Assembly: GCA_021464245.1 (NCBI GenBank)
Contig: JADCRB010000016.1
Coordinates: 3,713,250 to 3,777,249, forward strand
Direction of reading: 5' to 3'
DNA: 64,000 nt
From: Carallia brachiata
Lineage: Eukaryota; Streptophyta; Magnoliopsida; Malpighiales; Rhizophoraceae
Shown here: positions 3,496 through 56,351 of the stretch, piece by piece
How positions within the stretch are numbered: the stretch's first letter is position 1
Layout of the letters: each line of letters begins with the position of its first letter
The notes under the pieces: generated by a model
Database searches by the model: none
Seen by the model: the letters and a program-made list of their open reading frames with translations, nothing else
Told to the model about the DNA's origin: nothing
Made by a program: the position numbers and the translations under genes

Positions 3496-4450
3496 TCAGT
3501 CTCAACTCATCCTCACTGCATATCAAACTTTTCCTCCCTTTCAGCAAGAAAAATGGAACCAGGTGCATGACATTAGGACAGGGAAGAAGATAGGTCACCT
3601 CGCACTAGATGGCACCCAACTTTAGTGCAACTGCAAATCTTGGAGGAGGTCTTTCATAACAATGGAGTTACTATTCCTAATGCATCACAGCTCTCTCGAC
3701 TTGCTTCACGAATACAGTTGGATAGAGCAGTCAAAATGAAAAAAGTGTATTTATGGTTTTAGAATTGGACATATAGGGAGAGATCAGCACAAAGAGCTAT
3801 TGTTTCTACAACACAGCCTATTTATACCATCGCTGCTATTCTCATGATGGATCTCACCAGTAATGCCTTGTCCTCAAATGAAGTTACGAGTCCAAGCTCC
3901 ACCATTACAATGGTCCCTCAAGGCTATTTTGGCGAAGCTATAGCTGGATGTAATGCATATACTGGTTCTAGAGATTTTACTCCTTATCATACGAAGCCTC
4001 AAGCTCCAGCCAGGGAATCATCCTTTATGGGAACTCCAATCTAGTAGGAAATTTTGCATCGGGAGGAAATTTTGCACCGGGAGGAAATTTTTTGGCGAGA
4101 CTTTACCTCTAACACCCCAGTGACGTCAATCAACAAGAAGGTTCCAATAGCATTGACGTCACCAGCCTGCCCAATGAGGACTTGATTGACCTCAAACTAC
4201 ACCTCGAGCCCCACAAGGTCGATCGATAAGGATAAGGTGCAACGATTTTTGCAGCACTGCCTTCATTTTTGCAACACGCGTCGACCACCGCCTCATTTGT
4301 CTCTTATGGCAAGAAGAGACGTGAAGGAAGACCCCACCTGATTCAACATATCTCTCTTTTTGACTTTCAAAAAAAAAAAGTTAGCTTTGTTGTGTATATA
4401 TTGTGTATATATATTTCATTCATTCTCAAGTCATGAAAACCACACCTCAA
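3496..4450 (+). pseudogene. WOX-like homeobox module, copy A
   Basis: Seen: ATG at 3553, then a frame from 3592 to 4044 broken by a single TAG. It holds a WOX-type homeodomain at about 3604-3790 (TRW...VQLQILEE...LYLWF-stop-NW at 3754-3765; the stop replaces the Gln of WFQN). A Ser/Thr-rich linker with a MVPQGYF motif follows. Downstream, at about 4094-4120, the WUS-box has lost about 9 bases inside ETLPL-FP, shifting the frame. An EAR-like block (LIDLKLHLEPH) lies at about 4180-4215. Known: WUS-clade WOX proteins carry homeodomain, WUS-box and EAR motif in this order. Inferred: a decayed transposon-borne WOX gene. It follows a TATA array by way of an LTR fragment. Confidence 0.8.
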
Positions 4451-6720: not shown

Positions 6721-7620
6721 ATAAAAATGATTGAGGGTTTGAGTCTGAATCATTATTCTAGTCTCAATCTTTTACTCGTTCCTACTGCAGGTCAAGTTTC
6801 TGCATCCTTTTAGTAAGAAAGATGGAGCCAGTTTTAAAACTTCAAGACAAGGGAGAGGATAGGTCACCATGCACTAGATGGCAACTGAGTCCAATGCAAC
6901 TGCAAATCTTGGAAGAGTACTTCCACAACAGTAAAGAACAAGAAAAATAGGGAGAGATCAACACAGAGAGCTGTTATTTTTCCAGCATGCTCTATTTCTA
7001 CCATCGCATCTGTTCCCACGGTAGATCTCACCAGTATGGCTTCATCCCTAGATGAAGCGGGTTCGAGCTTCACCATTGCCATGGTTCCTCAAGGCTATTT
7101 CGACCAAAGCTATAGCCTGCAATAGTACGCATACGGGTTCTGGAATTTTTAATAACTTGTCATACAAAGCTTCAAGCTCTAGCTAGGGGTTTGTCCCTTA
7201 TGGGTACTTTAATTTGGGAAGAAACCTTACACCAGGAGAGAGCCACTCTAGCAAAACTTTGTCTCTCTTTCTAGTACACCCCTGTGACGTCAATTAGCAA
7301 GAAATTTTTAGTAGTGTCGATGTTATTGGCCTGCCAAACAAGGATGCAATTGACTTGGAGCTACACCTTGGGCTCCACGAGGTCAGCGGACAACGATCAG
7401 ATGCAACAACTTTTACTGCACGTATTATTGACTTGTACAATACGCGTCGGCTGTCGCTTTGTTTGTCCATTATGATAGAATGGGATGTGAAGGAGGACCC
7501 CACCTGATGTAGCATATCCTCTTTTTGACTTTTTGCAAAAGAAAGGAAAAAGGCAGCTTTTGTTGCGTATATATTTCCTGCATTCTCAAGTCACAGAACT
7601 CACCCCTCAACTCTTCTTAC
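6721..7620 (+). pseudogene. WOX-like homeobox module, copy B (homeodomain core deleted)
   Basis: The leader contains a pyrimidine-rich stretch ending TACTGCAG (about 6790), then ATG at 6822. The N-terminal arm and helix 1 of the homeodomain are present (about 6873-6930: TRW..SPMQLQILEEYF). About 100 bp is missing at about 6932, removing the middle of the homeodomain up to the recognition helix; the post-helix REIN/RERST region follows. The WUS-box-like block (KTLSLFLVHP) is at about 7255-7283 and the EAR-like motif (AIDLELHLGLH) at about 7345-7380. Stops occur in between. Copies H, I and J share the same deletion, so they form a subfamily. Confidence 0.78.
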
Positions 7621-14420: not shown

Positions 14421-15658
14421 TCATCTCCCTCACCCGTATATTTGTTTGGGATGCATTTCTTGGTCTGACAAAGTGTAAGAATAGATTCATGCCAACTTTC
14501 CTCTGACAGATTTGAAGAGACGATAATCTAGTTGGCTGAGGCTATGTCTTCTCGGTCCTAAATTATTTTATTTTGGTCAATGAGCTTCAAGATCAGCTTA
14601 TTTAAGATGAAGAACTTTTCGGTTGGATGGCTAACTGTGTGGTGATACTTGTAGAATTTCAGATCGTTGACCCAATCCTTCTGATTCAATTACTTGCATT
14701 ATAAGAGCTTGATCAGCTTCGCTTCCAAAAGCTGATCAAGAATGTCTGGAACGTCAGAGTGAGGGAATGGATATTTCTTCTGTTCTAACTCTTGCAATGT
14801 CGTCTTTTGTCTTTTTTGTTTATTTGTTGGCACTAGAGGACTCACTTTTGTTTTATCTCCTATTTTTATTGGTGAAGTATCAACGGTTATCACTTCCTTG
14901 CCCTCATGCTGGTCCAGTTGGATGGAAACCGTGCCCCTAGAGTTCTTGATGTTTATCTCCGTGTCATACGGGTGAGTCACTAATTCCTCAAAAGTTTGAG
15001 GTTTGATGCCTTGCAGGATGTATAATAACTCCTGTACAACAACTCCCAGTGCATCCCTTGAATGCACATTTCCACAGTAGAAGTCTCCATTAGACAATCT
15101 TTGCAATCCAAACTAAGAGCACGCCATCTATTTATGTAATTGATGACATGCTCTCATTTCTTTTGCTTTGTGATGGTAAGCTCCATCATGCTTACTGTTC
15201 GACGGGTGCGAAAAAATTTGTTGAGAAACTCGCGTTGCGGTTGCTCCCAACTGTGAATTGATTCTGGTTGAAGGTTTATGAACCAAGTGAAGGCAGTATC
15301 CTGGAGTGAACGAACAAACTGTTTTACCAAAAGGTCAATGTAGGTTCCTACATTGTTGCAGGTTTCAACGAAGTGAGCAATGTGTTGCTTAGGATCATGT
15401 AGTCCATCGAATTGTTGAAACTTGGGCGGTTGGTAGGCCAAGGCATATTGAGGTGTTCAATTCGTCTTGTGTACGGTTTGACGGTGAACCTTGAAATGGT
15501 ACAGTTTGTTGTAGGCAGATTGTATTGGCTGTCCTATCATGTAATTGTTGGACAAATAGCAAAACGACGATATTTGAAGGCAGTAGTTGTGTGGGACCGC
15601 TTTGTTGTTTGGTTTGCCATGAACGTGTTGACTGGAGTTGCTTCTGGAGTGAAATAGC
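14421..15658 (-). pseudogene. gag: Ty3/gypsy gag, 5' truncated
   Basis: Structural polyprotein of an LTR retrotransposon. Seen, from N to C on the minus strand: a linker beginning FTPEAT at the very edge (about 15650); the retrotransposon gag domain (FQQFDG, then FVRSLQDTAFTWF at about 15290-15330); a KLIKL segment near 14710; and a zinc-knuckle-like C-terminal part with FxxYH (about 14640-14690). At least three frame breaks separate the open pieces (15,154-15,441 and 14,699-15,106). The first ~60 codons are missing because the copy ends exactly where an oppositely oriented gag begins. No protease or reverse transcriptase follows. Confidence 0.85.
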
Positions 15659-17000
15659 CATGATAACAAGCACAACCAACACAACCAACATGGAAAATAG
15701 GATTGCAGGATTGGAAAATAGAATTTCCCAGTTTATTAAAGCTTTGGAGGAAAAAGATCAACCAATCGCCTGCCTCAAAGGAAATATTCCAATATAAGTT
15801 GATCATGAGAGCAGCGAGGAGCAGCCATATCCACCTGGTTTCACTTGAAAAGCAACTCTAGACAATACCTTAACGGCAAAAAAAGAACAAAGCGGTCCCA
15901 CACAACTACTGCCTCCAAATTCTATTGCTTCGCTATTTGTCCAATAATTACAGGACATGATAGCCAATTCAATCCACCTGCAACAAAGTGCACCATTTCA
16001 AGGTTCACAAATGTATGTCAGACCGTACACAAAATAGATTGAACACCTCAGCATGCCTTTAGGCTACCAACTACCTATGTTTCAACAATTTGATGGACGA
16101 GGTGATCCTAAGCAACACGTTGCTCACTTCGTCAAAACCTACAACAATGCAAGAACCTATGGTGACCTTTTAGTGAAACAGTTTGTTCGTTCACTCAAGG
16201 ACACCACCTTCACCTGGTTCACAAACCTTAAACTAGAATCAATTGGCAGTTGGGAGCAGCTATAATGTGAGTTTCTCAACAGATTTTTCAGCACCTATGG
16301 AACAATAAGTATGATGGAGCTTACTAGTACCAAACAAAAGAAAGGGGAGCCTGTTTTCGAATACATAAATAGATGGCATGCTTTCAATTTAGATTGCAAA
16401 GATCATCTAATGAAGACTTCTACAATAGAAATGTGCATTCAAGGGATGTATTGGGAGTTGTTATGCATCTTGCAGGGCATCAAACCTTGAACTTTTGAAG
16501 AATTATCGACTCGCGTGCACGACATGGAGATAACCATCAAGACCTCTTGGGGCACAATTCTTACCCAACTGGACTAGCATGGGGGCAAAGAAGTGATGGT
16601 CGTTGATACTCTACCAATAAAAGTAGGAGCTAAAATAAAAGTGAGTCCCCTAGTGCCAACAAATCAACATAAACAACAAGAAAGAAAAAGGTGACGTTGT
16701 GAGAGTTGGAACAAAAGAATTATCCATTCCCTGACTCTAATGTTTTAGACATTCTAGATCAACTTTTGGAAGCTAAGCTGATCAAGCTTTCAAGACAGAA
16801 GCAACCCAATCAGAAGGATCGGGCCAATGATCCAAAATTCTGTAGGTATCACCGCACAATTAGCCATCCAACCAAAAAGTCCTTCGTTTTAAAAGAGCTG
16901 ATCTTGAAGCTCATAAACCAAAATAAAATCATTTTGGACCGAGAAGATGTAGCCTCAGCCAACCAGACCACTGTCTCTTTAAATCCATCATAGAAAAGTC
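15659..17000 (+). pseudogene. gag: Ty3/gypsy gag, near full length but with stops
   Basis: It starts at an ATG at 15660, with the N-terminal coiled-coil-like stretch (MENRIAGLENRISQF at about 15690-15735). The gag domain follows at about 16053-16320 (FQQFDGRGDPKQHVAHF, then FVRSLKDTTFTWF). A zinc-knuckle-like FCRYHRTISHPTKK lies at about 16839-16880, with the usual second Cys replaced by Ser. Several in-frame stops (for example at about 15796, 15848, 16263, 16489) and frame changes make it a pseudogene. It stands head-to-head with the truncated gag at 14,421-15,658. PR, RT, RNaseH and most of integrase are absent. Confidence 0.88.
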
Positions 17001-17085
17001 GGCTTGAATCTACACTTACACGTTGTTACACCAAGAAATGCATCATGACCTAGCTTCATCAAGCGGTAAACTTCTAAAGCATTAC
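17001..17085 (+). pseudogene. Integrase C-terminal scar
   Basis: The short reading SSGKLLKHYYV (about 17056-17088) matches the last residues of the integrase tails at 27.7 and 60.6 kb (SGKFLKHCYV-stop). Here the stop is lost into the following A-rich tract. It shows gag was joined to the end of pol by one large deletion. Confidence 0.65.
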
Positions 17086-17945: not shown

Positions 17946-18357
17946 AAAAATGATTGAAGGTTTGGGTCTGAATCATTATTCTAGTCTCAACCTTTTGCTC
18001 GTTCTTACTGCAGGTCAAGCTTTCGTATCCTTTCAACAAGAAAGATGAACCAGTTGTAGAACCTCAAGACAATAGAGAGGATAGGTTACCACATACTAGA
18101 TGGCGACCGAGTCCAATGCAACTGCAAATCTTGGAGGAGTAGTTCCGCAACAGTTAAGGTACTTGTCCTAATTTGTCACAGCTCTCTCAACTTGCTTCCC
18201 AACTACGGCTGTACGGAGTAGTAGAGAAAAAAAATGCATATTCCTAGTTCTAAAACCGAAAAATAGAGAGAGAGCAACACTAAGAGCTACTGTTTCCGCA
18301 GAACAGCCTATTTCAACCACTGCAGTTGTTCCCATAATAGATTTTACCAATAAGGCT
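17946..18357 (+). pseudogene. WOX-like homeobox module, copy C (complete homeodomain, 3' cut)
   Basis: Leader with TTCTTACTGCAG at about 18002-18013, ATG at 18045. The homeodomain reads in a single frame with no indel from about 18100 to 18275: TRWRPSPMQLQILEE, then LSQLSQLASQLRLYG, then a recognition helix in which Trp and Gln of WFQN are both stop codons (TAG, TAA), followed by NRKNRERATLRA. Two more stops interrupt helix 1-2. The frame then continues PVSTT-like linker to IDFTN and breaks at 18357 into a minus-strand LTR, so the WUS-box and EAR part is lost. This copy best shows the homeodomain's true length, because only substitutions separate it from a readable frame. Confidence 0.82.
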
Positions 18358-20059: not shown

Positions 20060-20985
20060 AAAAGCTGCCCTTTTGATTTTTTCTGTGCAAAAGTCAAAAA
20101 GAGGATGTGCTAGATTAGGTGGGGGTCCCTTTACGTCTCTTTTTGCTATAAAAGACAAATGAGGCGACAGTTGATGAGTGTTGTAAAAGTCAAAGTAGTA
20201 CCACAAAAGTCGTTGCACCTTATCCTTGTTGGCCTCGTTGGGTCCAAGGCGCATCTCCAAGTCAATGGCGTTCTCGTTCGGCAAGCTGGTGATGTTGACT
20301 CAATTGGAACTTTCCTGCTGATTGACGTCACTGGGGCATACTAGAAAGAGAGGCAGAATTTTGCTAGAGTGGCTTTCTCCTAGTGTGAAGTTTTTTCCTC
20401 AATTGAAGTACCCATAATAAACCCTTGGCTGGAGCTTGAAGCTATGTATTACAAGGAGTAAAAACTCTAGAACCAGTATGCGTACTACTACAGACTATAG
20501 CTCTGGTTGAAATAGCCTTGAGCGACCATTGTAGTGTTGGAGCTCAGACCCACTCGTTTGAGGACGAAGCCATACCAGTGAGATCTACCATGGGAACAGC
20601 TGCAGTAGTTGAAACAGGTTGTGTTGTAGAGACAGTAGCTCTCAGTGTTGTTCTCTCCTTGTTTCTCTGGTTCTAGAAATAGAACTACACTTTTTTTTGT
20701 CTCAACTACTCCAGACAATCGTAGCCACGAAGCAAGTTGGGAGAGCTGTGATAAACTAGGACAAGTACCTTCATTATTGCGGAAGTACTCCTTCAAGATT
20801 TGCAGTTGCATTGGACTCGGTCGCCATCTAGTGCGTGGTGACATATCCTCCTCCTGGTTCTGAGGTTCTGTAACTGGTTCTATCTTTCTTGCTGAAAGGG
20901 AGCATAAGCTTGACCTACAGTAAGAATAAGGAAAAGGTTGAGACTGGAATAATGATTCAGACTCAAACCCTCCATCAGTTTTGAG
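20060..20985 (-). pseudogene. WOX-like homeobox module, copy D (most complete)
   Basis: The homologous start codon near 20882 is mutated to ATA, and a new ATG at 20844 opens a 118-codon frame. Homeodomain from about 20832 (TRWRPSPMQLQILKEYF, LSQLSQLASWLRLSG); one frameshift in an A-run at about 20690 disrupts the recognition helix. Linker with MVAQGYFNQSYSL at about 20490-20530. WUS-box-like block (ILPLFLVCP) at about 20333-20360. A second open stretch at 20000-20284 reads NAIDLEMRLGPNE (EAR-like motif at about 20241-20270), then KVQRLLWYYFDFYN and FIAKRDVKGPPP. Homeodomain, WUS-box and EAR order is kept on one strand within 0.8 kb. The TATA array is missing upstream; the CCAAATC tract abuts the module. 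Confidence 0.85.
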
Positions 20986-21240
20986 CTCGAGTTTAGATTT
21001 GTTGGTTTTGGGGATTTGTACTTGAATTGGGATTCAGTTTTGGGCTTTGAGCCTAAGATTTGGATTTGAATTTGGCTTTATTCGGGCCTGTACATGTGCT
21101 TCAGAATTTTTTTTTCGTTTTTTCTTTTTTCTTGATTTTTTTGCATTTTTTTTCTTCTTTTGAATTTTTCACTCTTTTTTTTTCCTTTTTTTGATCTTTT
21201 TTTTTCTTTTTGTATTTTTTTTCAAATTTTTTTTATTGTT
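20986..21240 (-). repeat. CCAAATC tract and A-rich tract
   Basis: Short CCAAATC-type tract (20986-21100), then the A-rich homopurine tract (T-rich on the plus strand, 21101-21240). Confidence 0.75.
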
Positions 21241-24280: not shown

Positions 24281-24900
24281 TCGCTCTAGCATTGAGAGCT
24301 GCTGGTTCTACAGCACAGCCTGTTTCAACCACTCCAACTGTTCCCATAATAGATCTTACCAGTATAACTTCATACTCAAATGAAGCAAGTCTTGCCACTG
24401 CAATGGTCCCTGAAGGCTATTTTAACCAAAGCTATAGCCTGTAGCAGTATGCCTATTGGTTTTGGAGTTCTTACTCCTTATTCTATAGAGCCTTAAGCTC
24501 CAACTAGGGGTTTATCCCATATGGGTACTTCAATCAAGGAAGAAACTTTACACTAGGAGAAAGCCACTCTGGCGAAACTTTGCCTCTTTTTCTAGTATGC
24601 CCTAGTAACGTCAACCAGCTGGAAAGTTCCAGTAGAGTCAACATCACCAGCCTGCCAAACGAGGAGAAAATTGACTTATAGCTACAACGTGGACCCCACG
24701 AGGTCGGCCGAAAAAATAAGGTACAACGATTTTTGTGGTACTACCTTGACAACATGCATTGGCCACTACCTCATTTGTCTCTTATAGCAAAAAGAGATGT
24801 AAAGGGACCCCACCTGATCCAGCATATCATCTTTTTGACTTTTGCACAAAAGAAGTCAAAAGCGTAGCTTTTATTACGTATATATTTCCTGCATTCTCAA
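24281..24900 (+). pseudogene. WOX-like module C-terminal two thirds, copy E (plus)
   Basis: Begins LRAAGSTAQPVSTTP, just after the expected homeodomain end. One continuous frame with few stops (TAG at about 24449 and 24508, TAG at about 24678) from about 24288 to 24860: VPIIDLTS, MVPEGYFNQSYSL, YAYWFWSSYSL, then WUS-box block GETLPLFLVCP (about 24571-24603) and a mutated EAR region (KIDL-stop-LQRGP, about 24667-24693). It continues KVQRFLWYYL and LIAKRDVKGP. The frame is open over far more than chance would allow for non-coding repeat DNA. Confidence 0.8.
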
Positions 24901-31984: not shown

Positions 31985-32540
31985 GAGAGAAAGAAAAGTC
32001 ATTTCAAGCTCTAGCTAGGGGTTCATCCCTTATGGGTACTTCAATCTAATAAGAAACTTCGCACCATGAGGGAGCCACTCTGGCGAAACTCTGCCTCTCT
32101 TTCCAGTACACCCTGGCGATGTCAATTAGCACGAAAGTTCCAGTAGTGTCGACATCACCAGCCCAACAAATGAGAACTTGATTAACTTAGAGCTATGCCT
32201 CGAGCCCCACGTGGTCGGTCGATAATAATAAGGTGCAACGACTTTTGGGGCACTGCCTTAACTTTTACAACATGCGTTGACCACCGTGTCGTTTGTCTCT
32301 TATAGCAGAAAGAGACATAAAGGGACCTCTATCTGATCCAGTGTATCCTCTTTTTGACTTTTGCACAAAAATAAACAGCTTTTGTTGTGTTTATATTCCT
32401 TGCATTCTTGAGTCATAGAACTCACACCTCAGCTCTTCTTTCTCTCTAAAGAGGGATGATGGCTAGTCCCTATATTCTCTTTTTCAGGAAATTCTCTAAT
32501 GAAAAAGCTAGAGATACATAAGAAAGAGTCGTTTTCTTTG
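31985..32540 (+). pseudogene. WOX-like module C-terminal half, copy F
   Basis: Plus-strand C-terminal part: GFIPYGYFN-like, then WUS-box block SGETLPLFPVHP at about 32082-32117, intact in sequence, then NLINLELCLEPH (EAR-like) at about 32175-32210 and stops at about 32217. The 3' region start follows (to 32540). Both ends are inverted junctions: a minus 3' region on the left and minus copy G on the right. Confidence 0.78.
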
Positions 32541-32840
32541 AAATGATTGCTCTGTACAGCCGTAGTCGCAAAGTAAGTTGGGAGAGTTGTGATAAACTAG
32601 GACAAATACCTTCATTACTGTGAAAGCACTCCTCCAAGATTTGCAGTTGCATTGGACTTGATTGCCATCTAGTTCGTGGTGACCGATCCTCTCATTTGTT
32701 TTAAAGTTCTACAACTGGTTCCATCTTTCTTGCTAAAAGGATGTAGAAGCTTGACCTACAGTAAGAACAAGTAAAAGGTTGAGACTGGAATGATGATTTA
32801 GACTCAAACCCTCAATCGCTTTTATCTTTTAGCGTCGTTC
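32541..32840 (-). pseudogene. WOX-like homeobox module, copy G (N-terminal part)
   Basis: ATG at 32724 on the minus strand, then homeodomain start (TRW..SPMQLQILEECFHSNEG, LSQLSQLTLRLRLY). It breaks at about 32548 before the recognition helix, where it meets copy F. Leader (32725-32840) and TATA array lie upstream as usual. It belongs to the gag-bearing element whose 5' LTR is at 35,420-36,276. Confidence 0.78.
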
Positions 32841-33960: not shown

Positions 33961-35345
33961 ACTTTAGAAGTTTACCACTTGATCAAGCCAGGTCAATATG
34001 CATTTCTTAGTCTGACAGCGTGTAAGCATACATTCATGTTGACTTTCCTCTAATGGATTTGAAGAGACAGTGGTCTGATTGGCTGAGGCTATGTCTTCCC
34101 AGTGTAAGATGAAGCACTTATCGGTTGGATAGCTAACTGTGTGGTGATACCTGCAGAAGTTTAGATCATTGACTCGATCCTTTTGATTGGGTTGCTAGTG
34201 TTCAGGGAGCTTGATCAGCTTTGCTTCTAAAAGTTGGTTGAGAATGTCTGGAATGTCAGTGTCGAGGAATGGATACTTCTTCTCTTCCAACTCTAGCAAC
34301 GTCGTCTTTTGTCTTTCTTGTTGTTTCTGTTGATTTGTAGGCATTGGAGGACTCACTTTTGTTTTAGCTCCTACTTTTATTGGTGAAGTATGAATGACTA
34401 CCACTTCCTTGCCACCATATTGGTCCAATTGGATGGGAAAAGTGCCCCCAGAGGTCTTGATGCTTATCTCCATGTCATGCGCGTGAGTCGCCAATTCCTC
34501 GAAAGTTCGAGGTTTGATGCCTTACAAGATGTATAACAACTCCCAACACATCCCTTGAATGCACATTTTCACAGTAGAAATCTCTATTAGACGATCTTCG
34601 CAATCCAAACAAAGAGCACACCATTTGCTATGTATTCGACGATAGACTGTCCTTTCTTTTCCCTGGTGCTGGTAAGCACCATCATGCTTATTGTTCGACG
34701 AGTGCTGAAAAATCTGTTGAGAAACTCGCATTGCAGTTGTTCCCAACTATCAATTGATTCTAGTTCAAGGTTTATTAACTAGGTGAAGGCGGTGTCCTTG
34801 AGTGAACGAACAAACTGTTTCACCAAAAGGTCGTCATAAGTTCATGTATTATTGCAGGTTTTGACGAAGTGAGCAACGTGCTGTTTAAAATCAACTCATC
34901 CATCAAATTATTGAAACTTGGGTGGTTGGTAGCCCAAAGGCATGGTGAGGTGTTCAATTCGTCTTGTGTATGGTTTGACGTGCATTCGTGAACCTTGAAA
35001 TAGTGCACTTTGTTGTAGGTGGACTTTATCTGCTATCATGTCCCGTAATTGTTGGACAAATAGCATAGCGATAAAATTTGAAGGCGGTAGTTGTGTGGTG
35101 TCACTTTGTTGCTTTTCTGTCATGAAGATTTTGGTTGGAGTTGCTTCTGGAGTAAAACCAAGTGGATATGGCTGCTCCTCACTGACCTCAAGATAACTTG
35201 TATTGGAGCCTTTCCCTTGAGACAAGCAATTTGTTGTTTTTTTTCCTCCAAAACTTTAATTAACTAGGAAATTATGTTTTCTAATTCTGCAATCCTATCT
35301 TTTGTGTTGTTTGTGCTTGTCATCATGACTGCGATGACGTCGGTG
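33961..35345 (-). pseudogene. gag: Ty3/gypsy gag, near full length
   Basis: Minus-strand gag with start near 35,324 (MMTSTNNT). Open stretch 34,908-35,225 (SSYLEVSEEQPYPLGFTPEA-like linker to LTMPLGYQPPKFQ), the gag domain around 34,740-34,860 (FVRSLKD type), open stretch 34,195-34,494 (linker to LNQLLEAKLIKLPEH) and the zinc-knuckle-like FCRYHHTVSYPTDKCF at about 34,105-34,155, with both Cys present. A few stops and frameshifts. It ends in the short integrase scar; PR-RT-RH and most of IN are deleted. Upstream the leader is almost gone: only the A-rich stretch and primer-binding site remain. Confidence 0.88.
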
Positions 35346-43080: not shown

Positions 43081-43970
43081 TATGAGAATGTAGGAAATAT
43101 ATACGCAACAAAATTTGCCCTTTTTTTTTCTTTTGCAAAAGTTAAAAAGAGGATGTGTTGGACTAGGTTGGGTCCTCCTTCACATCCCTTTCTGTCAAAA
43201 AGGACAAACGAGGCAGTGGCTGATGCGTATTATACAACGCAATAATGCGTGCTGTAAAAGTCATTGAATCTTATCCTTGTCGACCAACCTCGTTGGGCCC
43301 AAGTTGTAGCTCCAAGTCAATTGAGTCCTTGTCTGGTCGGCCAATGACATCGACACTACTAAACCTTTCCTGCTGATTAATGTTGCTGGGGTGTATTGGA
43401 AAGAGAGGCAGAGTTTCACTAGAGTGGCTCCCTCTTGGTGCGAGGTTTCCTCTCGGATTGAAGTACTCATAAGCGATGAACCCCTAATTGGAGCTTGAAG
43501 CTCCGTATGACAAGGAGCAAAAACTCCAAAACAAAGATGCGTACTGCTGTAGGTACTGCTGCAGGCTATAACTTTAGTCGAAATAGCCTTAAGAAATCAT
43601 GGCAGTGGTAAAGCTCAAACACACTTCGTTTGAGAATGAAGCCATACTAGTGAGATTTACCATGGGAATAGATGCGATCGTAGAAATAGAGTGTGCTATA
43701 GAAACAACAGCTCTCTGTGTTGCTCTTTCCCTATTTCTCTGATTCTTCACCATTGCAGAAGTACTCCTCCAAGATATACAGTTGCATTAGACTTAGTCAC
43801 CATCTAGTGCGTGGTGACCTATTCTCTCTCTTGCCCTGAGGTTTTGCAACTAGCTCCATCTTTCTTGCTGAAACGATGCAAAAGCTTGACCTGCAATAAG
43901 AACAAGTCAAAGGTTGAGACTAGAAAAATGATTCAAACTCAAAACCTCAATCATTTTTGTCCTTTTAGGC
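43081..43970 (-). pseudogene. WOX-like homeobox module, copy H (homeodomain core deleted)
   Basis: ATG at 43859 (minus). Homeodomain start, then the shared ~100 bp deletion, then NRERATQRA at the homeodomain end (about 43700-43740). Linker with IPMVNLTSMAS and SYSLQQYA. WUS-box block SETLPLFPIHPSNINQQ at about 43375-43418, with no stop. EAR-like motif SIDLELQLGPNE at about 43288-43325, also intact. A frameshift near 43285 ends it. Of all copies this one keeps WUS-box and EAR-like motif together in one open frame (about 43,288-43,440). The TATA array lies directly upstream. Confidence 0.82.
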
Positions 43971-44440
43971 CGTTCACAGTTTATACTCGTGTAGGCCAGG
44001 AGTTTTAGACTAGGCCTTGTGTGGTTGTTGCAGTCTTGCTTTTAGACATGTGAGGGCTAGGAGTTTGCTTTGTTGTTCAGTTGTCGCCTTTTATACTCGT
44101 GCAAGGCAGGAGTCTGTTGTAGGGTCATCGTCTTTTATACTCGTGCGAGGTAAGAGTTTATTGTTGGGTTATCATCTTTTATACTCGTGCGAGACAGGAG
44201 TCAGGTTTGCTGAATTGTTTGCTTTTTACAGTCGTGCGAGGCAGGAGTTTGTTGTTGGGCTGTTGCGTTTTATACTCATGCGAGACAGGAGTCTGGTTTG
44301 CTAAACTGTTCACCTTGTATACTTGTACGAGGCAGGAGTTTGTTGTTGGGTTGTTGCCTTTTGTACTTGTGCGTTATAGGAGTCTGGTTTGCTGAACTAT
44401 TTACCTGTTATGCTCGTGTGAGGTAGAAGTTTGATTTGTT
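43971..44440 (-). repeat. TATA minisatellite array (about 10 units)
   Basis: Minus-oriented units with the gene-side TATAAACTGTGAA variant at about 43976, beside the WOX leader. Confidence 0.85.
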
Positions 44441-44770
44441 GAATTGCTGAGTTGCTGACTTGGGCTTTGAGTCAGGGTTTGGGTTTTGCCCTTGAATTTG
44501 AATTTGGACTTTATGTCGGAAGTTGGTTTTGGGTTTTGAGCCCGAGTTTGAATTTGACTTTTGATTTGGGTCTAGATTTGGACTTTGGACTAGAATTTGA
44601 GTTTGGGCTTTGGGCAGGGGTTTGGGGTCTACCCTCAAATCTGAAATTAGACTTTAGTCCGAAATTTGGATTTAATCTTTGAGCCAGAATTTGGATTTGG
44701 GTTGGAGTTTGGTTTTGGGCCTTTGAGCCGGGTTTGGATTTGGATCTAGATTTAGATTTGGGTTTGGAAC
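44441..44770 (-). repeat. CCAAATC-rich degenerate tract
   Basis: Normal position between array and leader. The open frames across it on both strands are low-complexity artefacts. Confidence 0.8.
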
Positions 44771-45221
44771 CGTACCCCCAAATTGGAAGACTAGAGTGGA
44801 GACTCTTGGTAGGGATTTGACCCGCTGCCACCAACTTCTATCGTAGTGGATGATCGACTTCTCCATTCAACGAGGGAGTTGGGTAAGAGATCCTATTGTT
44901 GTGTAAGCTACAGTTTTTCTATTTTATTATTTTTTTAGGCGGCGAGGAACCATCTCTGTACGCGAATTTATGGACCTACCTACCCAAGCAGGATAGTTGA
45001 CGCAGGCGATGGAGTAATCATATTTTTGTTGACAGAGGCAATGTTGCCCTTCCTTGGTGCCAGTGATGCACTGGATTTCTACCCTTCCGGTTGTGTTGGT
45101 GTTGGCTGTTTCATTGCCTATAAATAGGCCATGAAATGACCGTCGTGCGACCAACCTTTTTTTTTTTTTTTAAGGAGCAAGAGCTTGGAGGCAGAGAGGC
45201 CCAACTGGGCATGCCAAAAAT
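44771..45221 (-). mobile_element. Retroelement leader with hairpin and primer-binding site
   Basis: Hairpin at about 45103-45140 with GCCTATAAATAGGC in the loop; primer-binding-type site at about 45198-45216 (GCCCAACTGGGCATGCCA on the plus strand). Confidence 0.75.
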
Positions 45222-46133
45222 TGTAAAGGGGTCGCAAGTTTCAAACCTGAGTAGTTCAGCTTTGAAAATACATATACAAATTACAAGTGAAAATTTAAAA
45301 TTTATGCGGGGTGGATCTCTGTGTGATCCTCCAATTAATGCTCCTTTTTTATGTTGTTAAGGGCCACGTGGGCTTGATCTTGATAGAAAGAGATAAATTT
45401 CCACAGCGTGATCTAGAACTATAAGAAATAAAATTCTATTGAGGGCCAAGGCTTGATTTTAGGGGGATACTGTAACTCTACTGAGGGTTGTAGAGACTTG
45501 ATCTCAATTGGATTGGCTTCATTACAGTGAGGACCGTTTGAGTTTAATCTCAAGTGGACTGGTTTGTCTCCACTGAGAGCTGGGGCTTAATCCCACTCAA
45601 ATTGGTTTATCTCTGTTGAGGGTCATAGGGCTTGATCTCAGATGGACTGGCTCTGCTGAGGGCTAAGGCTTGATCTCAGACAAACTTTTTGTGGCTCCGT
45701 TGAGGGCTTTGGGGCTTAATATCAAACAGATGTTTGATATTTTGATATCTTGGATTTTTTCTCTTGCAAATCCCAATCGGTAGCGACCAGAGAGCATACA
45801 CCCAAAATATGCTCAGAAATGAGTATATAAAATATTTTTGGGCTTTTGATCTAAAAGATCGCATTTAATGGCGTCAAGAGAGTATATGCTCAAAATATGA
45901 AAATGTATGAAGGGAGTTTGGGAGTTTTAATGGAACTGTGCTTTTGCAATTCTTTTGTTCGTGATTTGCATAGCTTCCCCATATGGGCTACTTATAGCAA
46001 ATGGGGTAAAGAAGAAGACAAGTATGAGGGCCACCGCCTTGAGTTGGACGGCACTGATTTCTTTGACCTTTTTTTCTGCTTCTGGTTGGTTGCCGACCTC
46101 ATAAGTCTTCCCTTTTTTTTTTTTTTGATTACA
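45222..46133 (-). mobile_element. LTR shared between the copy H and copy I units
   Basis: About 912 bp, TGTAAAGGG at 45222 to GATTACA at 46133. It serves as 5' LTR of the copy H unit and 3' LTR of the copy I unit. Confidence 0.85.
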
Positions 46134-46700
46134 AATGCCCTCACTTCAAGGCTTGGTAAGGTAGAACCTTGGGAGGCGATTCGAATCAAGTTTGGAAGTC
46201 CAAATTGAATCTTGAGACGTATTGATGAATATTGAACTTGAAGTCTTTAGCTTCGTCAAGTTTGGCTGATATTGAGCTTCCATAGTTCATAAAGGATTTT
46301 TTCATAGAACTCGAAGTTCCGTAGACTAGGTGAGGATGATTCAGTAAGTAAAGGACTTTAACCTGCCCATAGAGAAGGTTTAGCACCACGAAACTTCAAG
46401 GCCAGTACACATAGAGACTAGCCGTAGTGATGAATTCTCTGTCTATTTTGATGTAAGCAGAGTAGTTGGAACTTCTCCATCTGTTACCACATTTGTGATT
46501 CCATGAGGATGATCACAACTTCTCTGCATGCTGTGATACGTGCAAACTTAGGAGAGTGATTAGAACTTCGTTGAGCATAATGGCGTTAGAGGTTGAGATT
46601 CGAGGATCCCTCGACTCTTTCTCTGTCTATCCTTTGTATTTGCAGCTTCTCGATTAAAGGATTTCCTGAAAAAGAAATCACATGGACTTGCCATCTTCTT
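46134..46700 (-). mobile_element. Polypurine tract and 3' non-coding region
   Basis: Begins with CCCTCACTTC (polypurine tract GAAGTGAGGG on the minus strand), then the usual 3' region. Confidence 0.75.
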
Positions 46701-47610
46701 TTTTTACAGAGAAAGAATAGTTGAGGGGTGAGTTCTATGACTTGAGAATGCAGGAAATATATGCGCAACAAAAGTTGCCCCTTTTCTTTTTTGAAAAAGT
46801 CAAAAAGAGAATGTGCTGGACCAGTTGGGGTCCTCCTCCATGTCCCTTTCTGTCAAAAGGGGCAAACAATGCAGCAGCTGATGCAATTTGTACAGGGCAA
46901 TAATGTGTGCCGCAAAAGTCGTTGAATTTTATCCTTGTCAACCGACTCATGGGGCCTAAGCCATAGCTCCAAGTCAATTGAGTCCTCGTTTACTGGGCCA
47001 ATAACGTCTACACTACTGAAACTTTCCTACTGATTGATGTTGCCGGGGTATACTTGAAAGAGAGGTAGAGTTTCGTCAGAGTGGCCCCCTCCTGGTGCAA
47101 GGTTTCCTCCCGCATTGAAGTACCTATAAGGGATGAACGCCTGACTAGAGCTTGAAGCTCTATATGAGAAAGAGTAAAAACTCCAAAACTAGTATGCGTA
47201 CTGCTGCAGGCTATTGCTTTAGTCGAAATAGCCTTGAGGAACCATGGCAGTGGTGGAGCTCAGAGCCGTTTCATTTGAGGACAAAGCCATACTGGCAAGA
47301 TCTACCATCGGAACAGATGCGATGGAAGAAATAGAGTGCGCCATAGAAACAACAGCTCTTTGTGTTGCTCTCTACCTATTTCTTAAATTCTTTACTAATG
47401 CGGAAGTACTCCTCCAAGATTTGCAGTTGCATTGGATTCAGTCACCATTTAGTGTGTGGTGACCTATCCTCTACCTTGCTCTGGTTCTACAAGTAGTTCC
47501 ATCTTTCTTGCTGAAAGGATGCAAAAGCTTGACCTGCAGTGAGAATGAGTAAAAGGTTGAGACCAGAAAAATGACTCAAACTCAAACCCTCAATCATTTT
47601 TATGCTTTTG
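46701..47610 (-). pseudogene. WOX-like homeobox module, copy I (homeodomain core deleted)
   Basis: ATG at 47502 (minus). Homeodomain N-terminal part (SPMQLQILEEYF-like reading at about 47410-47440), the shared ~100 bp deletion, and the post-homeodomain linker VPMVDLASMALSS. MVPQGYF at about 47225-47247. WUS-box block DETLPLFQVYP at about 47045-47077, stop at about 47030. EAR-like motif SIDLELWLRPHE at about 46945-46982, then KIQRLL. It lies in an element with both LTRs (45,222-49,739; 4.5 kb), the tidiest complete unit in the window. Confidence 0.82.
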
Positions 47611-48050
47611 GGCCATTCACAATTTATACTCGTGCAGGGCAAGAGTCTTGGACTTGGTCCTGAATTCTGTTTTGGAGCCATTCACAGTTTATACTCGTGC
47701 AGGTCAGGAGTTCTAGACTGGGCCTTGTGTGGTTGTCGTAGTCTCGCCTTTTATACATGTGTGGATTAGGAGTTTACTTTGTTGTTGAGTTGTCGCATTT
47801 TATAGTCATGCGAGGCAAGAGTTCGCTTCAGTTGATTGCCTTTTATACTCGTGCGAGAGAAGAGGCTAGTTTGCTGAATGTTCACCTTTTATATTTGTGC
47901 GAGACAAGAGTCTAGTTTGCAGAATTGTTTGCCTTTTATACTCGTGCAAGGCAGAAATTTGTTATTGGGTCATTGTCTTTTGTACTCGTGCAAGGTAGAA
48001 ATTTGTTGTTGGGTTGTCACCTTTTATACTCGTGCGAGGCAAGTGTCTGA
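47611..48050 (-). repeat. TATA minisatellite array (about 9-10 units)
   Basis: Minus-oriented; two gene-side TATAAACTGTGAA-type units at its WOX-proximal end (47,610-47,700). Confidence 0.85.
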
Positions 48051-48390
48051 TTAGTTGAGTTGCTTAGTTGCTGACTTGAGCTTTCAGTCAGGGTTCGGGT
48101 TTCGCTCTCGAATTTGAATTTGGACTTTAAGCTAGAATTTGGATTTGAGTTTTGAGCCTGAGTTTGGACTTGACTTTTGATTTGGGTCCAGATTTGGACT
48201 TTAGACTGGAATTTGAGTTTGGGCTTTGTGCAGGGGTTTGGGGTCAACCCCCGAATCTAGATTTGGACTTTAGGCTGAAATTTGGATTTGATCTTTGGGC
48301 CATAATTTGGATTTGGGCTGGAATTTGGTTTTGGGCTTTGAGCCCGGGTTTTGAATTGGATCCAAATTTAGATTTGGATTTGGAAGCATG
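48051..48390 (-). repeat. CCAAATC-rich degenerate tract
   Basis: Very similar to 44,441-44,770, as expected for neighbouring tandem units. Confidence 0.8.
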
Positions 48391-48832
48391 CCCCCAATTT
48401 GGAAGGCTGGAGTGGAGAGGCTTGGTAGGGATTTGACCCACTGCCGCCAACTTTTGATGGGGTGGATGTTTTACTTGTTATTGTGTAAGAGATCTTGTTA
48501 TTGTGTGAGTTGCCGTTTTTCTATTTTATTAATTTTTTTAGGCGGCAAGGAACCATGTCTGTACGTGAGTTTGTTAACATGCGTACCAAGGTAGGGTAGT
48601 TGATGCAGGCGATGGAGCAATCGTCTTTTTGCTTATGGAGGCGGTCTTGCCTTCCTTGGTGCCAATGATGTGCTGGATTTATGCCCCCAGGGTTGTGTTG
48701 GTGTTGGTGTTGGCCATTTTATGGCCTATAAATAGGCCATGAAATGACCACCGTGCAACCAACCTCTTTTTTTTTTTTTTTTAAGGAGCAAAAGATGGGA
48801 GGCAAAGACGTCCCACTTGGTGTGCCAAAAAT
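48391..48832 (-). mobile_element. Retroelement leader with hairpin and primer-binding site
   Basis: Hairpin at about 48712-48748 (loop with GGCCTATAAATAGGCC); primer-binding-type site at about 48810-48828. Confidence 0.75.
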
Positions 48833-49739
48833 TGTAAAAGGACCGTAAGTTTTGAGCCTGAACAGTTAGGCTTTGAAAATGCAGAAACAAATTACAAGTG
48901 AAAATTTAAAATTTATGTGGGTTCGATTTCTATGTGATCCTCTTATTAATGCTTTTTTTGATGTCATCAAGGGCCGTGCGAGCATAATCTTGACAGAAAG
49001 AGATAAGTTTCCACAACGTGATCTTGAACTGTAGGAAATAAATTCTATCAAGGGCCAAGGCTTGATCTTAGGGGGATACCATAACTTTGGTGAGGGTCAT
49101 AGGGACTTGATCTCAATCGGATTGGCTTCATTCCAATGAGGGTCGTATGAGTTTAATCTCAAGTGGACTGGTTTGTGTCCACTGAGGGCTGGGGCTTGAT
49201 TCCACTCGAATTGGTTTTGCCCCATTGAGGGCCATAGGGGCTCGATCTCATATGGATTAGCTCTGCTGAGGGCTGAGGCTTGATCTCGGACAGACTTGTG
49301 TTGCTCCACTGAGGGCTGTAGGGGCTTAATCTCAAACATATGTTTAATATTTTAATATTTTGGATTTTGGCTCTTGCAAATCCCAATCAGTAACGACCAG
49401 AGAGCATACACCCAAAATATACTCGAAAATGAGTATATTAAATATTTTGGGCTTTTGATCTAGAAGATTGCATTTAATGGTTTCCGGAGAGTATATGCCC
49501 AAAATATGAAAATATATGAACGAAATTTGGGAGTGTTAACATAATTGTGTTTTTTCAATTCCTTTGTTCATGATTTGCACAGCTTCCCCTAATTGGCTAT
49601 TTATAGCTAATGGGGTAAAGAAGAGGACAAGCATGAGGGCCACTGCCTTGAGTTGGACGACACTGATCTTTTCGACCCTTTTTTTTTCTTCTAGTCGGTT
49701 GCCAACCTCATGACTCTCCCCTTTTTTCTTTTGTTTACA
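48833..49739 (-). mobile_element. LTR shared between the copy I and copy J units
   Basis: About 907 bp, TGTAAAAGG at 48833 to GTTTACA at 49739. U3 palindrome with CTATTTATAGCTAAT at about 49590. Confidence 0.85.
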
Positions 49740-50300
49740 AATGGCCCAGTTCAAGGCTTGGTGAGGCAGAACCTTGGGACGCGATTCTAGATTGAAACTT
49801 GAGACGTAGTCACGAATATTAAACTTGAAGTCTTTAGCTCTATTTAGCGCGGCTGATATTGAGCTTCCATAGCTCGCAAAGGATTTTTTTCATAAAACTT
49901 AAAGTTCCATGGATTAGGTGAGGATGATTCAGTAAGTAAAGAGCTTAAACCTCCCTATGGAGAAGGTTCAGCACCACAGAACTTTAAGGCCAGCATATGG
50001 AGAGATGGGTCGTAGTGATGACTCCTCTGTCTGTTTTGATGTAAGCAAAGTAATTTGAACTCCTCATCCATTACCACATCTGTGATTCCATAAGGATTAT
50101 CACAACTTCCCTACATGCTATGATAGGTGCAGATTAAGGAGAATGATTGGAACTTCATTGACTATGATGGTGTCAGAGGTTTATATTCGAGGATCTCTCG
50201 ACTCTTTCTCTATCTAGCTTTTGTGTTTGTAGCTTCTTGATTAAAGGATTTTCTCAAAAAGAGAACACAGGGACTAGCCATCTTCTTTCTTTAAAGAGAA
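49740..50300 (-). mobile_element. 3' non-coding region
   Basis: 3' region of the copy J unit; the polypurine tract is shortened (AACTGGGCC on the minus strand). Confidence 0.7.
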
Positions 50301-51200
50301 AGAAGCGCTGAGGGGTGAGTTTTGTGACTTCAGAATGAAAGAAATATATACGCAACAAAAGCTGCCCCTTTCTTTTTTTCTTTTGTAAAAGTCAAAAAGA
50401 GGATGTGTTGTACTAGGTGGGGTCCTCCTTCACGTCCCTTTCTGTTATAAGGAACAAATGAGGTTGTGGCTGACGCATATTGTACAAGGCAATAAAGCGT
50501 GCCGTAAAAGTCATTGTACCTTATCCTTGTCGGCCGAACTCGTGGCATGAGGCGTAGCTCCAAGTCAATTGAATCCTCGTTTGATCGGCCAACAACGTCG
50601 ACACTACTGAAACTTTCCTATTGATTGATGTCGTCGTGGTGTACTGAAAAGAGAGGCGGAGTTTCACCGGAGTGGCTCCCTCTAGTGTGAGGTTTGCTCT
50701 CGGATTGAAGTACCGATAAGGGACGAACCCTTGGCTGGAGCTTGATGCTCTATATGACAAGGAGTAAAAACTCTTGAACTAGTATGCGTACTGCTGCAGG
50801 CTATAGTTTTAGTTGAAATAGCCTTGAGGAACCATGGCAGTAGTGGAGCCCAGACTTGCTTCACTTGATGGCGAAGCCATACTGGCCAGATTTACCATGG
50901 GAACAGATGCAATGGTAGAAACAACGTGTGTTGTAGAAACAATTGTTCTCTGTGTTGCTCTCTCCCTATTTCTCCAGTTTTGCACTATTGCAGAAGTACT
51001 CCTCCAAGATTTGCAGTTACATTGGACTCGGTCGCCATGTAGTACGTGGTGACCTATCCTCTCCTTTGCCCTAAGGTTCTGCAACTAGCTCCATCTTTCT
51101 TGTTGAAAGGATACAGAAGCTTGACTTGCAATAAGAATGAGTAAAAGGTTAAGATTAGAATAGTGATTCAAACTCAAACCCTCAATTGTTTTTATCTTTT
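50301..51200 (-). pseudogene. WOX-like homeobox module, copy J (homeodomain core deleted)
   Basis: ATG at 51094 (minus). Because of the shared ~100 bp deletion, an alternative frame from the leader runs through without a stop into QNWRNRERATQR (end of the homeodomain recognition helix) and on to the linker VPMVNLASMAS and MVPQGYFN, 91 codons in all (50,809-51,084). WUS-box block GETPPLFSVHHDDINQ at about 50,625-50,668; EAR-like motif SIDLELRLMP at about 50,545-50,575, after which a 77-codon frame (50,330-50,563) stays open to IFLSF. One stop lies between WUS-box and EAR. TATA array upstream. Confidence 0.82.
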
Positions 51201-51667
51201 TGGGCCATTCACAGTTTATACTCATATGGGGCAGGAGTCTTGGAGTGGGTCCTAAATTTAGTTTTTGAGCCGTTCACAGTTTATACTCGTGCAAGCCAAG
51301 AGTTCTAGACTGGGCCTTGTGCGATTGTTGCTATCTCATCTTTTATACTCGTGCGGGCTAGGAGTCTGCTTTGTTATTGAGTTGTCGTCTTTTATACTTG
51401 TGCGAGGCAAGAATTTGGTTCAGTTGATTGCCTTTTATACTCGTGCGAGGCAGGAGCCTGGTTTGCTGAACTATTTGCCTTTTATACTCATGTGAGGCAG
51501 GATTGTGTTGTTGAACTGTTCGCCTTTTATACTCATGTGAGGTAGGAGTCGGTTGCTAGGTCGTCATCTTTTATACTCGTGCGAGACAAGAACTTGTTGT
51601 TGGGTTGTCGCCCTTTATACTGGTGCAAGATAGGAGTTTGGTTTGCTAAACTGTTCGCCTTTTATAC
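51201..51667 (-). repeat. TATA minisatellite array (about 9 units), cut at 51,667
   Basis: Minus-oriented array, gene-side variants at 51,205-51,300. It ends abruptly within a TTTTATACA core where non-LTR sequence begins. Confidence 0.85.
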
Positions 51668-55093: not shown

Positions 55094-56351
55094 TTAATTA
55101 CAATGATAATCTTGCCACATCCATTCTACAATAGAATCTCTCAAATCCACTGCTTGCCTGTATTCATTGTCAGACATATTGGCTCCTTCAACATCTTCAC
55201 TATTTCCTTCCTCCTGCTCTAGCATCCTATCAACCTCATCGATCATGCGTTCATCCAGATCAACCCCCATTAAAAAATTATGAATGATGCAACATGCTAG
55301 TATGATCGCAGTCATTGTTTCACATGAGTGATGGGGCTCATTGCCACTAGATATAATTGGAAATCTTTTTTTCAACACCCCAAATGCCCTCTCGATGACA
55401 TTACGCAGTGAAGCATAATGATGGTTGTATAGTTCTTTAGCATTTTGAGGACCTCGCCTTGAGTACTCTTTCAAGTGGTAATGAACACATCTATATGGTG
55501 TAAGTAATCCACTGCATAATGGAAAGCTCACATCATTGAGATAAAATTTTCCTAAGGAAAAGAAGTCTGTCGTTATTATATAAATTTATTAAGATTTCAT
55601 AATATTGGCCTTGTGATGTGTAATTACCTCTTGGAATGACGAGATTGTCTTCTCTTGTTAGCGCATTTTTAAATATTCTTGAATCAGAAGCTATTCCTTC
55701 TTAATCAGTCAACACGTATGTAAATTTCATATCAAACGAGCAACTGGCCAAAACATTTTAGTGGGCCAATCTTTTCTTCCACGATATCTAGGAGCATCTG
55801 CCCGCGATACTTTGACTCTAACGTGAGTTTCATCAATTGCTCCTAAACAATCCTATGTAATGTAGGCAAACTATTGACAACTATTTTGTAATTTAGCGAT
55901 CTATTTACAATATAGCTAAGATTTTCTATTTGTCAAAATCATGTAATTAAATTACCTTGAAATATGGATAGAATCTAGGATTGCTCATGATCTATGATGA
56001 CACCTCATATCCACTTGGTTGTTTAAGAAATTTAGCCTCCAGAGATATCACGGCACGTAAGACGTTGTGAAAATGCCGACTGACAATCTCCGTTGAATGA
56101 CTTCAATGACCAAAAATATGCAAGAATTTAGCTACTTGCTCTTCCATCGTGGATAGGCGAAAGTCTTTTATGTGCCCTTTTGTTCTTAATAGTTCACAAA
56201 ATTGAAGGAAGGCGTGCAGACCCTTGTGCACAATCTCTCGACAAGTGTGTTCATTTGCAGTAAGTGGGTCCATCAACTGTTGCCGTCAACATTTTTGTTC
56301 CATATATTTTTGACGTAACGGTTCCTCGATCAACATTGCTTGCATCTACAT
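55094..56351 (-). pseudogene. PIF/Harbinger DDE transposase, three exons, decayed
   Basis: Minus-strand gene. Exon 1 about 56351-55956: ...LHAFLQFCELLRTKG, EEQVAKFLHIFGH, SRHFHNVLRAV, NPRFYPYFK. Intron 55955-55853 (GT..AG, 103 bp). Exon 2 55852-55628: DCLGAIDETHVRVKV, RYRGRK, FDMKFTYVL, SDSRIFKNALTRED. Intron 55627-55552 (GT..AG, 76 bp). Exon 3 55551-55094: GKFYLNDVSFPLCSGLLTPY, HYHLKEYS, LRNVIERAFGVLKKRFP, ending in WMWQDYHCN-stop. The DDE residues are visible: D in GAIDETH, D in ASDSR, E in NVIERAFG. Breaks: stops in exon 1 (at about 56286, 56106 and 55998), a frameshift near 55767, and a stop at the Trp of the usual GWEG motif (about 55708). It is related to DDE_Tnp_4 transposases and no longer functional. 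Confidence 0.9.

Follow-up and report, generated by a model that had tools for sequence, protein, structure and literature searches.

Within the Tat clade of Ty3/gypsy long terminal repeat (LTR) retrotransposons, Retand and Ogre have a second RNase H, a long region after pol with an extra open reading frame (ORF), tandem repeats, and 5-bp target duplications (PMC11963269, PMC6317226), features also seen in the family described below. Both elements are recognized by where this additional domain sits, after the first RNase H and before integrase (PMC6317226). Where extra ORFs of Retand have known domains, they run antisense and mostly belong to Transposase_28 (PMC11963269, PMC6317226). Known conserved domains are mostly absent from the extra ORFs of plant Ty3/gypsy elements (PMC9289625), and most of the antisense ones are of unknown origin (PMC7264820). 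Here, we describe a Tat-clade family of Carallia brachiata whose extra ORF lies in sense orientation and, judged from its sequence, encodes a homeodomain protein of the WUSCHEL (WUS) clade of WUSCHEL-related homeobox (WOX) proteins. This extra ORF has a recognizable origin, in a well-studied protein family with solved structures. Old relics of the gene lie in a 64-kb stretch of contig JADCRB010000016.1, hereafter the window, in which the flagged interval 43081..51200 holds three tandem units, H, I, and J; young copies were found elsewhere in the 337.5-Mb genome.

Host-like sequence inside LTR elements has precedents. Orchid Ty3/gypsy elements carry a captured ORF for an AlkB-like m6A demethylase, likewise a host-like domain that was fixed as an additional ORF and multiplied, although that cargo is an RNA demethylase and the cargo here is a developmental transcription factor (PMC9289625). 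Pieces of host genes, usually in sense, also occur inside LTR elements of rice and sorghum (PMC3726574) and in maize Bs1 (named in PMC7264820), whereas the gene described here belongs to a large family with many open copies. The original prediction knew of no described element with such cargo. Among the papers listed by a literature search that left most subscription papers outside its reach, we found none describing a homeobox or WOX gene in an LTR retrotransposon, and the stem "homeo" is absent from the main text of PMC11963269, PMC7264820, PMC9289625, PMC6317226, PMC11728184, and PMC3726574. A Tat-clade element with an extra ORF is therefore known, and its WUS-type cargo is new as far as we searched.

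A Tat-clade family with a sense accessory gene

The analysis covered eight loci with a homeodomain, each at most 10 kb long, and the upstream DNA of six of them (L009, L010, L011, L012, L013, and L016), which are the young copies below. At all six, located on five contigs, the WOX frame has the same place inside a pair of LTRs. The further marks of an LTR retrotransposon are a primer binding site (PBS), a polypurine tract (PPT), and a short target duplication, and the ends are clear in four copies. The 5′ LTR ends in TTACA and is followed by a PBS-like site resembling AATTTTTGGCACGCTCGGTGGGAC in every copy (6/6). An LTR start, TGTAA, stands after a PPT-like site resembling GAAGTGGGGGCAT in four copies, and these boundaries are ambiguous in L009 and L011. 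Exact 5-bp target duplications flank L012 (CAAGC), L016 (CTCAT), and L010 (CCAGC), and four of five bases agree in L013. The LTRs of the six copies differ by a Kimura two-parameter distance (K2P) of 0.009-0.075, which implies recent activity.

On the plus strand of L012, profile matches follow one another in the order reverse transcriptase (RT, E 6.9e-34), RNase H (2.1e-20), RVT_3 (7.8e-24), H2C2 for the integrase zinc domain (2.7e-8), and rve for the integrase core (2.1e-7; at 31.6 bits, this last match is under the Pfam cut-off of 32.6). The order RT, RNase H, integrase (INT) is that of Ty3/gypsy, and the RVT_3 match, at residues 633-752 between RT_RNaseH and H2C2, is the second RNase H of the Ogre/Retand arrangement. 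Next, on the same strand as pol, comes a 300-codon stop-to-stop WOX frame with a homeodomain (3.3e-12), the motif TLPLFPEYSG, and the terminal sequence LDLELHLGPR. The family is thus Ty3/gypsy, Tat clade, with the Ogre/Retand arrangement, and its accessory gene, intronless and in sense, comes after pol and before the 3′ LTR. For a Retand-type antisense Transposase_28 ORF, three antisense frames of one copy (L016 3250-5864) gave no Pfam family; the sense frames after the WOX ORF of L016 gave no Pfam domain.

The same arrangement recurs beyond L012. Of 23 copies, each picked by homeodomain match, 19 (the six young copies and 13 of 17 further ones) have INT directly upstream of WOX and in the same orientation. 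L014, which has no INT, is a short pol-less copy in which 739-bp repeats, 95.4% identical, flank WOX. Gag is more variable: among the six young copies, matches to the window-type gag are long in two and short in one, and the other three have a strong N-terminal gag of the L018 type. In a departure from Retand and Ogre, an array of the minisatellite TATAAAAGG stands before pol in three of the six. Pol is flanked by A-rich stretches at either end in three of the six. A single TATA-like unit (CATGAGTATAAACTGTGAACG in several copies) is found about 120 nt before the WOX start in five of the six, a count that depends on the mismatch limit used. The original prediction proposed a promoter-like array dedicated to the gene; this unit is consistent with the idea, but the array itself precedes pol, and such a promoter is at best tentative. 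In one copy, L018 8435-9202 and L012 3638-4015, before pol and before WOX, are very A-rich and read as lysine runs.

Searches of the genome indicated a large family. With the homeodomain as query, 60 of the best 150 of 1347 candidates scored 49.5 bits (hand count), and some others were host genes. The 203-aa protein of one young copy (P0001) gave 2284 candidates, the best 150 of which are all 86-100% identical to it, are dispersed over many contigs, and include none inside the window. By hand count, 103 of these 150 lack stops, and 23 have an identical score, a sign of a recent burst. The 150 matches are a lower bound from a list that favors good copies, and element structure was examined in 23 copies. 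Taken together, the six LTR pairs, WOX following RT, both RNases H, and INT, the upstream INT, and at least 150 matches bear out the predicted capture of a near-complete WUS-type regulator by a Ty3/gypsy lineage that then retained and spread it. The spread over many contigs also shows that the module is not a chance insertion confined to this stretch. The family further suggests that a transposon can inflate the number of WOX genes counted in plants and their homeobox annotations. No relatives of P0001 were found in an IMG/VR scan, and an NCBIfam profile search returned nothing. Two WOX-element copies on different contigs, L026 and L027, have one odd homeodomain and one stop in common and resemble a pair that arose by duplication or represents two alleles.

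Identity and origin of the accessory protein

The best PDB match of P0001 is WUSCHEL (E 2.9e-18), and the alignment is free of gaps. Against STENOFOLIA and other WOX proteins, a one-residue gap appears that is absent against WUS. An AlphaFold2 model built from an 11-row alignment places helices at residues 24-36, 44-57, and 62-75. Its predicted local distance difference test (pLDDT) scores have block means of 90-94 over residues 21-70 and are low elsewhere, for a whole-model mean of 57.8. The top five Foldseek matches of the model are WUS homeodomain chains; four of them superpose at 1.0-1.1 Å (6ryd/6ryl), and the lowest-ranked one at 1.5 Å. In the WUS homeodomain, bases are read by R38, Q89, N90, and R94 (PMC7203112). 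Equivalents of all four are retained in 30 of 33 aligned copies, and W39, K82, N83, and Y86 in 33 of 33. Residue 36 is R in seven aligned element proteins and S in WUS; an S36R change is reported to leave the band shifts on TGAA similar and to alter those on TAAT, where the pattern becomes mainly monomeric (PMC7203112). A choice of sites somewhat different from that of WUS is therefore a fair prediction for the element protein.

Toward the C-terminus, the WUS-box reads TLPLFPE in 18 of the 33 copies, with one-letter variants in 11 of the other 15 (aligned to the L011 frame), and the EAR end reads ELDLELRL or ELDLELHL in 26, with variants in the other seven. This anatomy predicts a nuclear DNA-binding protein in which the WUS-box and EAR motif would form a co-repressor tail. 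Thus, the element protein has in common with WUSCHEL and WOX structures (6ry3, 6ryd, 6ryl) the homeodomain fold, the base-reading residues, the WUS-box, and the EAR end. It differs from WUSCHEL in that its homeodomain is about half identical, its gene is intronless and inside a retrotransposon, and the recognition asparagine is followed by RRSRKK where WUSCHEL has HKARER. By these sequence features, the cargo classifies as a WUSCHEL-clade protein with a homeodomain, a variable linker, a WUS-box, and a terminal EAR motif.

A homeodomain tree (24 rows including Arabidopsis ones, 65 columns, midpoint root only) joined five young and three window rows in one clade with support of 99/97, apart from six host WOX rows. 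This clade is not nested inside WUS, so the grounds for the term WUS-type are the additional residue in the homeodomain, the WUS-box, and the EAR end.

Two host WUS-like genes, L028 and L029, are 85% and 80% identical to the Arabidopsis WUS homeodomain. In both, the WUS-box follows about 1.1 kb after the homeodomain with in-frame stops between, whereas in the element the distance is about 300 nt in one frame, without a stop between in the L011 ORF. Capture of a spliced transcript is therefore the simplest origin. Other host WOX genes seen are L024, L006 and L023, and L039, which we tentatively take to be WOX5-like, WOX13-like (both L006 and L023), and WOX9-like.

Maintenance of the gene and rival explanations

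What the sequences show is a Tat-clade Ty3/gypsy family of at least 150 members, counted as matches to the WOX protein, with a WUS-clade accessory gene. The best explanation as a whole, in our judgment a probable one, adds that the family captured this regulator, spread with it, has kept it, and may act through it in the meristem. An ancestor of the element would have taken in the spliced transcript of a WUS-type gene and then spread with it until lineages were about 30% diverged in sequence. The protein would bind WUS-type DNA sites through the normal WUS homeodomain surface, and its WUS-box/EAR end would recruit a TOPLESS-type co-repressor. By acting on host or element transcription in the shoot-meristem stem cells, the source of gametes, it could allow new insertions to be inherited. 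Subepidermal stem cells of the shoot give rise to germ cells, and in Arabidopsis the stem cells of the vegetative meristem show raised expression of 54 element families, 26 of which are LTR elements (PMC7560203). A WOX cargo is plausibly linked to the cells that a plant element must traverse for inheritance, and a WUS mimic could act there. We think it rather doubtful that the element has taken over this master regulator of stem cells and encodes a working WUSCHEL mimic in the shoot meristem, acting on host genes or on silencing as an element-borne germline-access factor that would keep the element active or present in future gamete cells. With one small protein to study, the access of plant retrotransposons to the germline becomes a testable question.

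Maintenance was assessed in 18 copies with both WOX and INT. The mean ratio of nonsynonymous to synonymous differences per site (pN/pS) is 0.23 for INT, 0.36 for the homeodomain, 0.57 for the whole WOX gene, and 0.70 after the homeodomain. From the mutation spectrum of the LTR pairs, a nonsynonymous:synonymous (N:S) ratio of 2.41 is predicted for WOX, which by arithmetic on site counts corresponds to a neutral pN/pS of about 0.70. The homeodomain thus shows constraint and the rest is close to neutral, although the choice of copies by homeodomain score favors conserved homeodomains. Divergence in the homeodomain stays below that of the 3′ noncoding region in 142 of 153 pairs, and divergence in the whole gene does so in 122. 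Nonsynonymous changes make up a smaller part of shared (N:S 74:42) than of private changes (80:24; Fisher P 0.039, stops counted as nonsynonymous), and stops are absent from the 89 changes found in at least three of the 33 copies (P about 0.03). The dN/dS-type comparison, run here as pN/pS, points to constraint on the homeodomain and to near-neutral change in the part behind it; overall, the pattern reads as constraint that is real but modest, and best on the DNA-binding part.

Several observations weigh against the preferred explanation. Besides the homeodomain-based choice of copies and the near-neutral value after the homeodomain, no more than 90 of 153 pairs have less divergence in this latter part than in the 3′ noncoding region. 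Shared changes depart weakly from neutrality, with one-sided P values of 0.04 for the homeodomain, 0.07-0.17 for the whole gene, and 0.33 for the C-terminal part. Stops account for 4 of 53 changes found in exactly two copies, and they interrupt the frame in 10 of 33 aligned copies and in 47 of the best 150 of 2284 P0001 matches (hand count). The usual WOX ATG, present in L009, L011, and L016, is lost in L012; among the 23 copies, the frame is open from the start region to the EAR motif in nine, six of them with the ATG, and INT upstream of WOX is absent in four. An excess of third-position differences between old window and young lineages was not clear (P 0.16), and the homeodomain tree does not place the element clade within WUS. 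Lastly, TGAA, TAATGG, and G-box motifs are not enriched in the six young LTRs, which lends no support to direct self-regulation through the LTR.

Across the same 18 copies (L009-L040), mean divergence is 2.8% for integrase pieces, 7.6% for WOX, and 9.6% for the 3′ region. This reflects selection in part, and possibly also exchange of 3′ modules between elements. Module recombination was rejected as a necessary reading, the synonymous gap (0.065 vs 0.112) being smaller than the gap in total divergence.

The main rival is that the WUS-type gene was captured once and hitch-hikes on a successful element without benefit to it. The near-neutral part after the homeodomain, the weak tests on shared changes, the many broken copies, and the LTRs without WUS-type motifs all fit such a passenger. 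Against it stand the low pN/pS of the homeodomain, the retained base-reading residues, and the absence of stops among changes of three or more copies (tempered by those in two copies), as well as a frame that is open in many young copies despite about 30% divergence from the window copies. On balance, we regard a pure passenger as unlikely, though well worth keeping in mind. Far less probable is a decoy or dominant-negative role, in which forms without a complete homeodomain (relics B, H, I, and J of the window) would still bind TOPLESS through WUS-box and EAR motif. These four do have a common homeodomain gap and retain WUS-box-like and EAR-like motifs, but they are old and carry stops, and in young copies no part of the gene is better conserved than the homeodomain.

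Two further explanations would dissolve the association of gene and element altogether. An ordinary host WOX cluster into which retrotransposons inserted, giving a false impression of a joint unit, might be suspected from the tandem units with WOX relics and from the host WOX genes of the genome. It was rejected, as highly improbable, on the position of the WOX frame inside LTR pairs at all six loci, its adjacency to INT, the dispersal of the 150 best and closely similar matches, and an intronless homeodomain clade separate from host WOX. Minisatellites and low-complexity stretches abound in the window and could raise the suspicion of chance similarity or a simple-repeat artefact; given the matches in Pfam, in the PDB, and by structure, together with the open family in the rest of the genome, we consider the chance of this negligible. 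A captured and maintained WUS-clade regulator thus remains our preferred account.

Relics in the window

The window is a patchwork of old repeats, mostly 72-86% identical to one another. A tblastn search with P0001 located ten WOX relic sites in it:

3553..3927, + strand: copy A, homeodomain nearly whole (E 7.5e-14 to the WUS homeodomain)
6822..7372, + strand: copy B, homeodomain gap of the H/I/J type
18047..18274, + strand: copy C, part of the homeodomain (also by tblastn with the WUS homeodomain)
20240..20883, - strand: copy D, homeodomain (PF00046, E 9.2e-6; also by tblastn with the WUS homeodomain), WUS-box-like ILPLFLVCPSD, and DLEMRLGP
24289..24696, + strand: copy E, C-terminal relic
32019..32207, + strand: C-terminal relic with ETLPLFPVHPG, on the strand opposite to F
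32536..32724, - strand: copy F, N-terminal relic
43295..43859, - strand: unit H, first 36 codons and, beyond the missing middle of the homeodomain, the linker, WUS-box ETLPLFPIHPS, and EAR-like IDLELQLGP
46952..47483, - strand: unit I, homeodomain gap as in H, ETLPLFQVYPG, IDLELWL
50540..51094, - strand: unit J, homeodomain gap as in H, worn WUS-box ETPPLFSVHHD, IDLELRLMPR

A profile HMM search does find homeobox similarity here: window ORF 20488-21030(-) gives the PF00046 match of copy D and matches WUSCHEL in the PDB (E 1.4e-5). With the WUS homeodomain as tblastn query, the match of copy A covers 3604-3795(+). By sequence similarity, WOX-type modules in the window are far above chance expectation. 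Alignments of H, I, and J to P0001 begin at codon 1 to 8, break at codon 34 to 37, and resume at codon 70. The homeodomain middle is missing in these three and in B, which form a homeodomain-deleted subfamily with persisting WUS-box-like and EAR-like motifs; more of the homeodomain is retained in A, C, D, and the N-terminal piece F. Hence, the predicted module of homeodomain, linker, WUS-box, and EAR motif on one strand held for the order of the WUS-box-like and EAR-like motifs, and failed for the middle of the homeodomain in four relics. Stops occur in all nine aligned window copies, two to six in each, and several window copies are partial.

The tandem units contain these further features:

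44071..44443, - strand: TATAAAAGG minisatellite of unit H (repeat analysis)
45222..46133, - strand: LTR common to units I and H, starting with TG and ending in TTTACA, 85.3% identical to the next LTR
46134..46247, - strand: 3′ end of the internal region adjoining the LTR, with homology to the sequence around the PPT in young copies
47839..48041, - strand: TATAAAAGG minisatellite of unit I (repeat analysis)
48800..48832, - strand: PBS-like start of the internal region, ATTTTTGGCACACC..., resembling the site after 5′ LTRs of young copies
48833..49739, - strand: LTR common to units J and I (LTR comparison)
51340..51667, - strand: TATAAAAGG minisatellite of unit J (repeat analysis)

The I/H and J/I LTRs differ by a K2P of 0.168, or about 12 million years at an assumed rate of 7e-9 per site and year, and a PBS-like ATTTTTGGCA comes after each of them. 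This makes the units tandems of the form LTR-internal-LTR-internal without pol. Pol queries gave a best E of 1.5 across the 64-kb window, so that WOX "after pol" fails for the flagged interval and holds for its relatives elsewhere in the genome. The expected TATA minisatellite 5′ of the module is indeed present in H, I, and J, where it adjoins WOX because gag-pol is absent. Loss of gag-pol between similar A-rich flanks would bring the array into this position. Units H, I, and J are probably old, pol-less derivatives that have lost part of the homeodomain.

Gag relics are present in the window at three places:

14702..15388, - strand: Retrotrans_gag relic (PF03732, E 1.8e-9)
16112..16789, + strand: gag relic, inverted with respect to the former and 51% identical to it (tblastn)
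34207..34875, - strand: gag relic (tblastn; E 8.5e-5, 23.1 bits, just below the Pfam cut-off of 24.1)

The first two lie in gag-bearing stretches that form an inverted pair, about 80% identical, within 14450-17044, and a third related stretch spans 34105-35319. Outside the gypsy patchwork, 55097-55585(-) holds a piece of a DDE transposase (PF13359, E 2.7e-11; PF04827, E 3.4e-9), presumably PIF/Harbinger-like.

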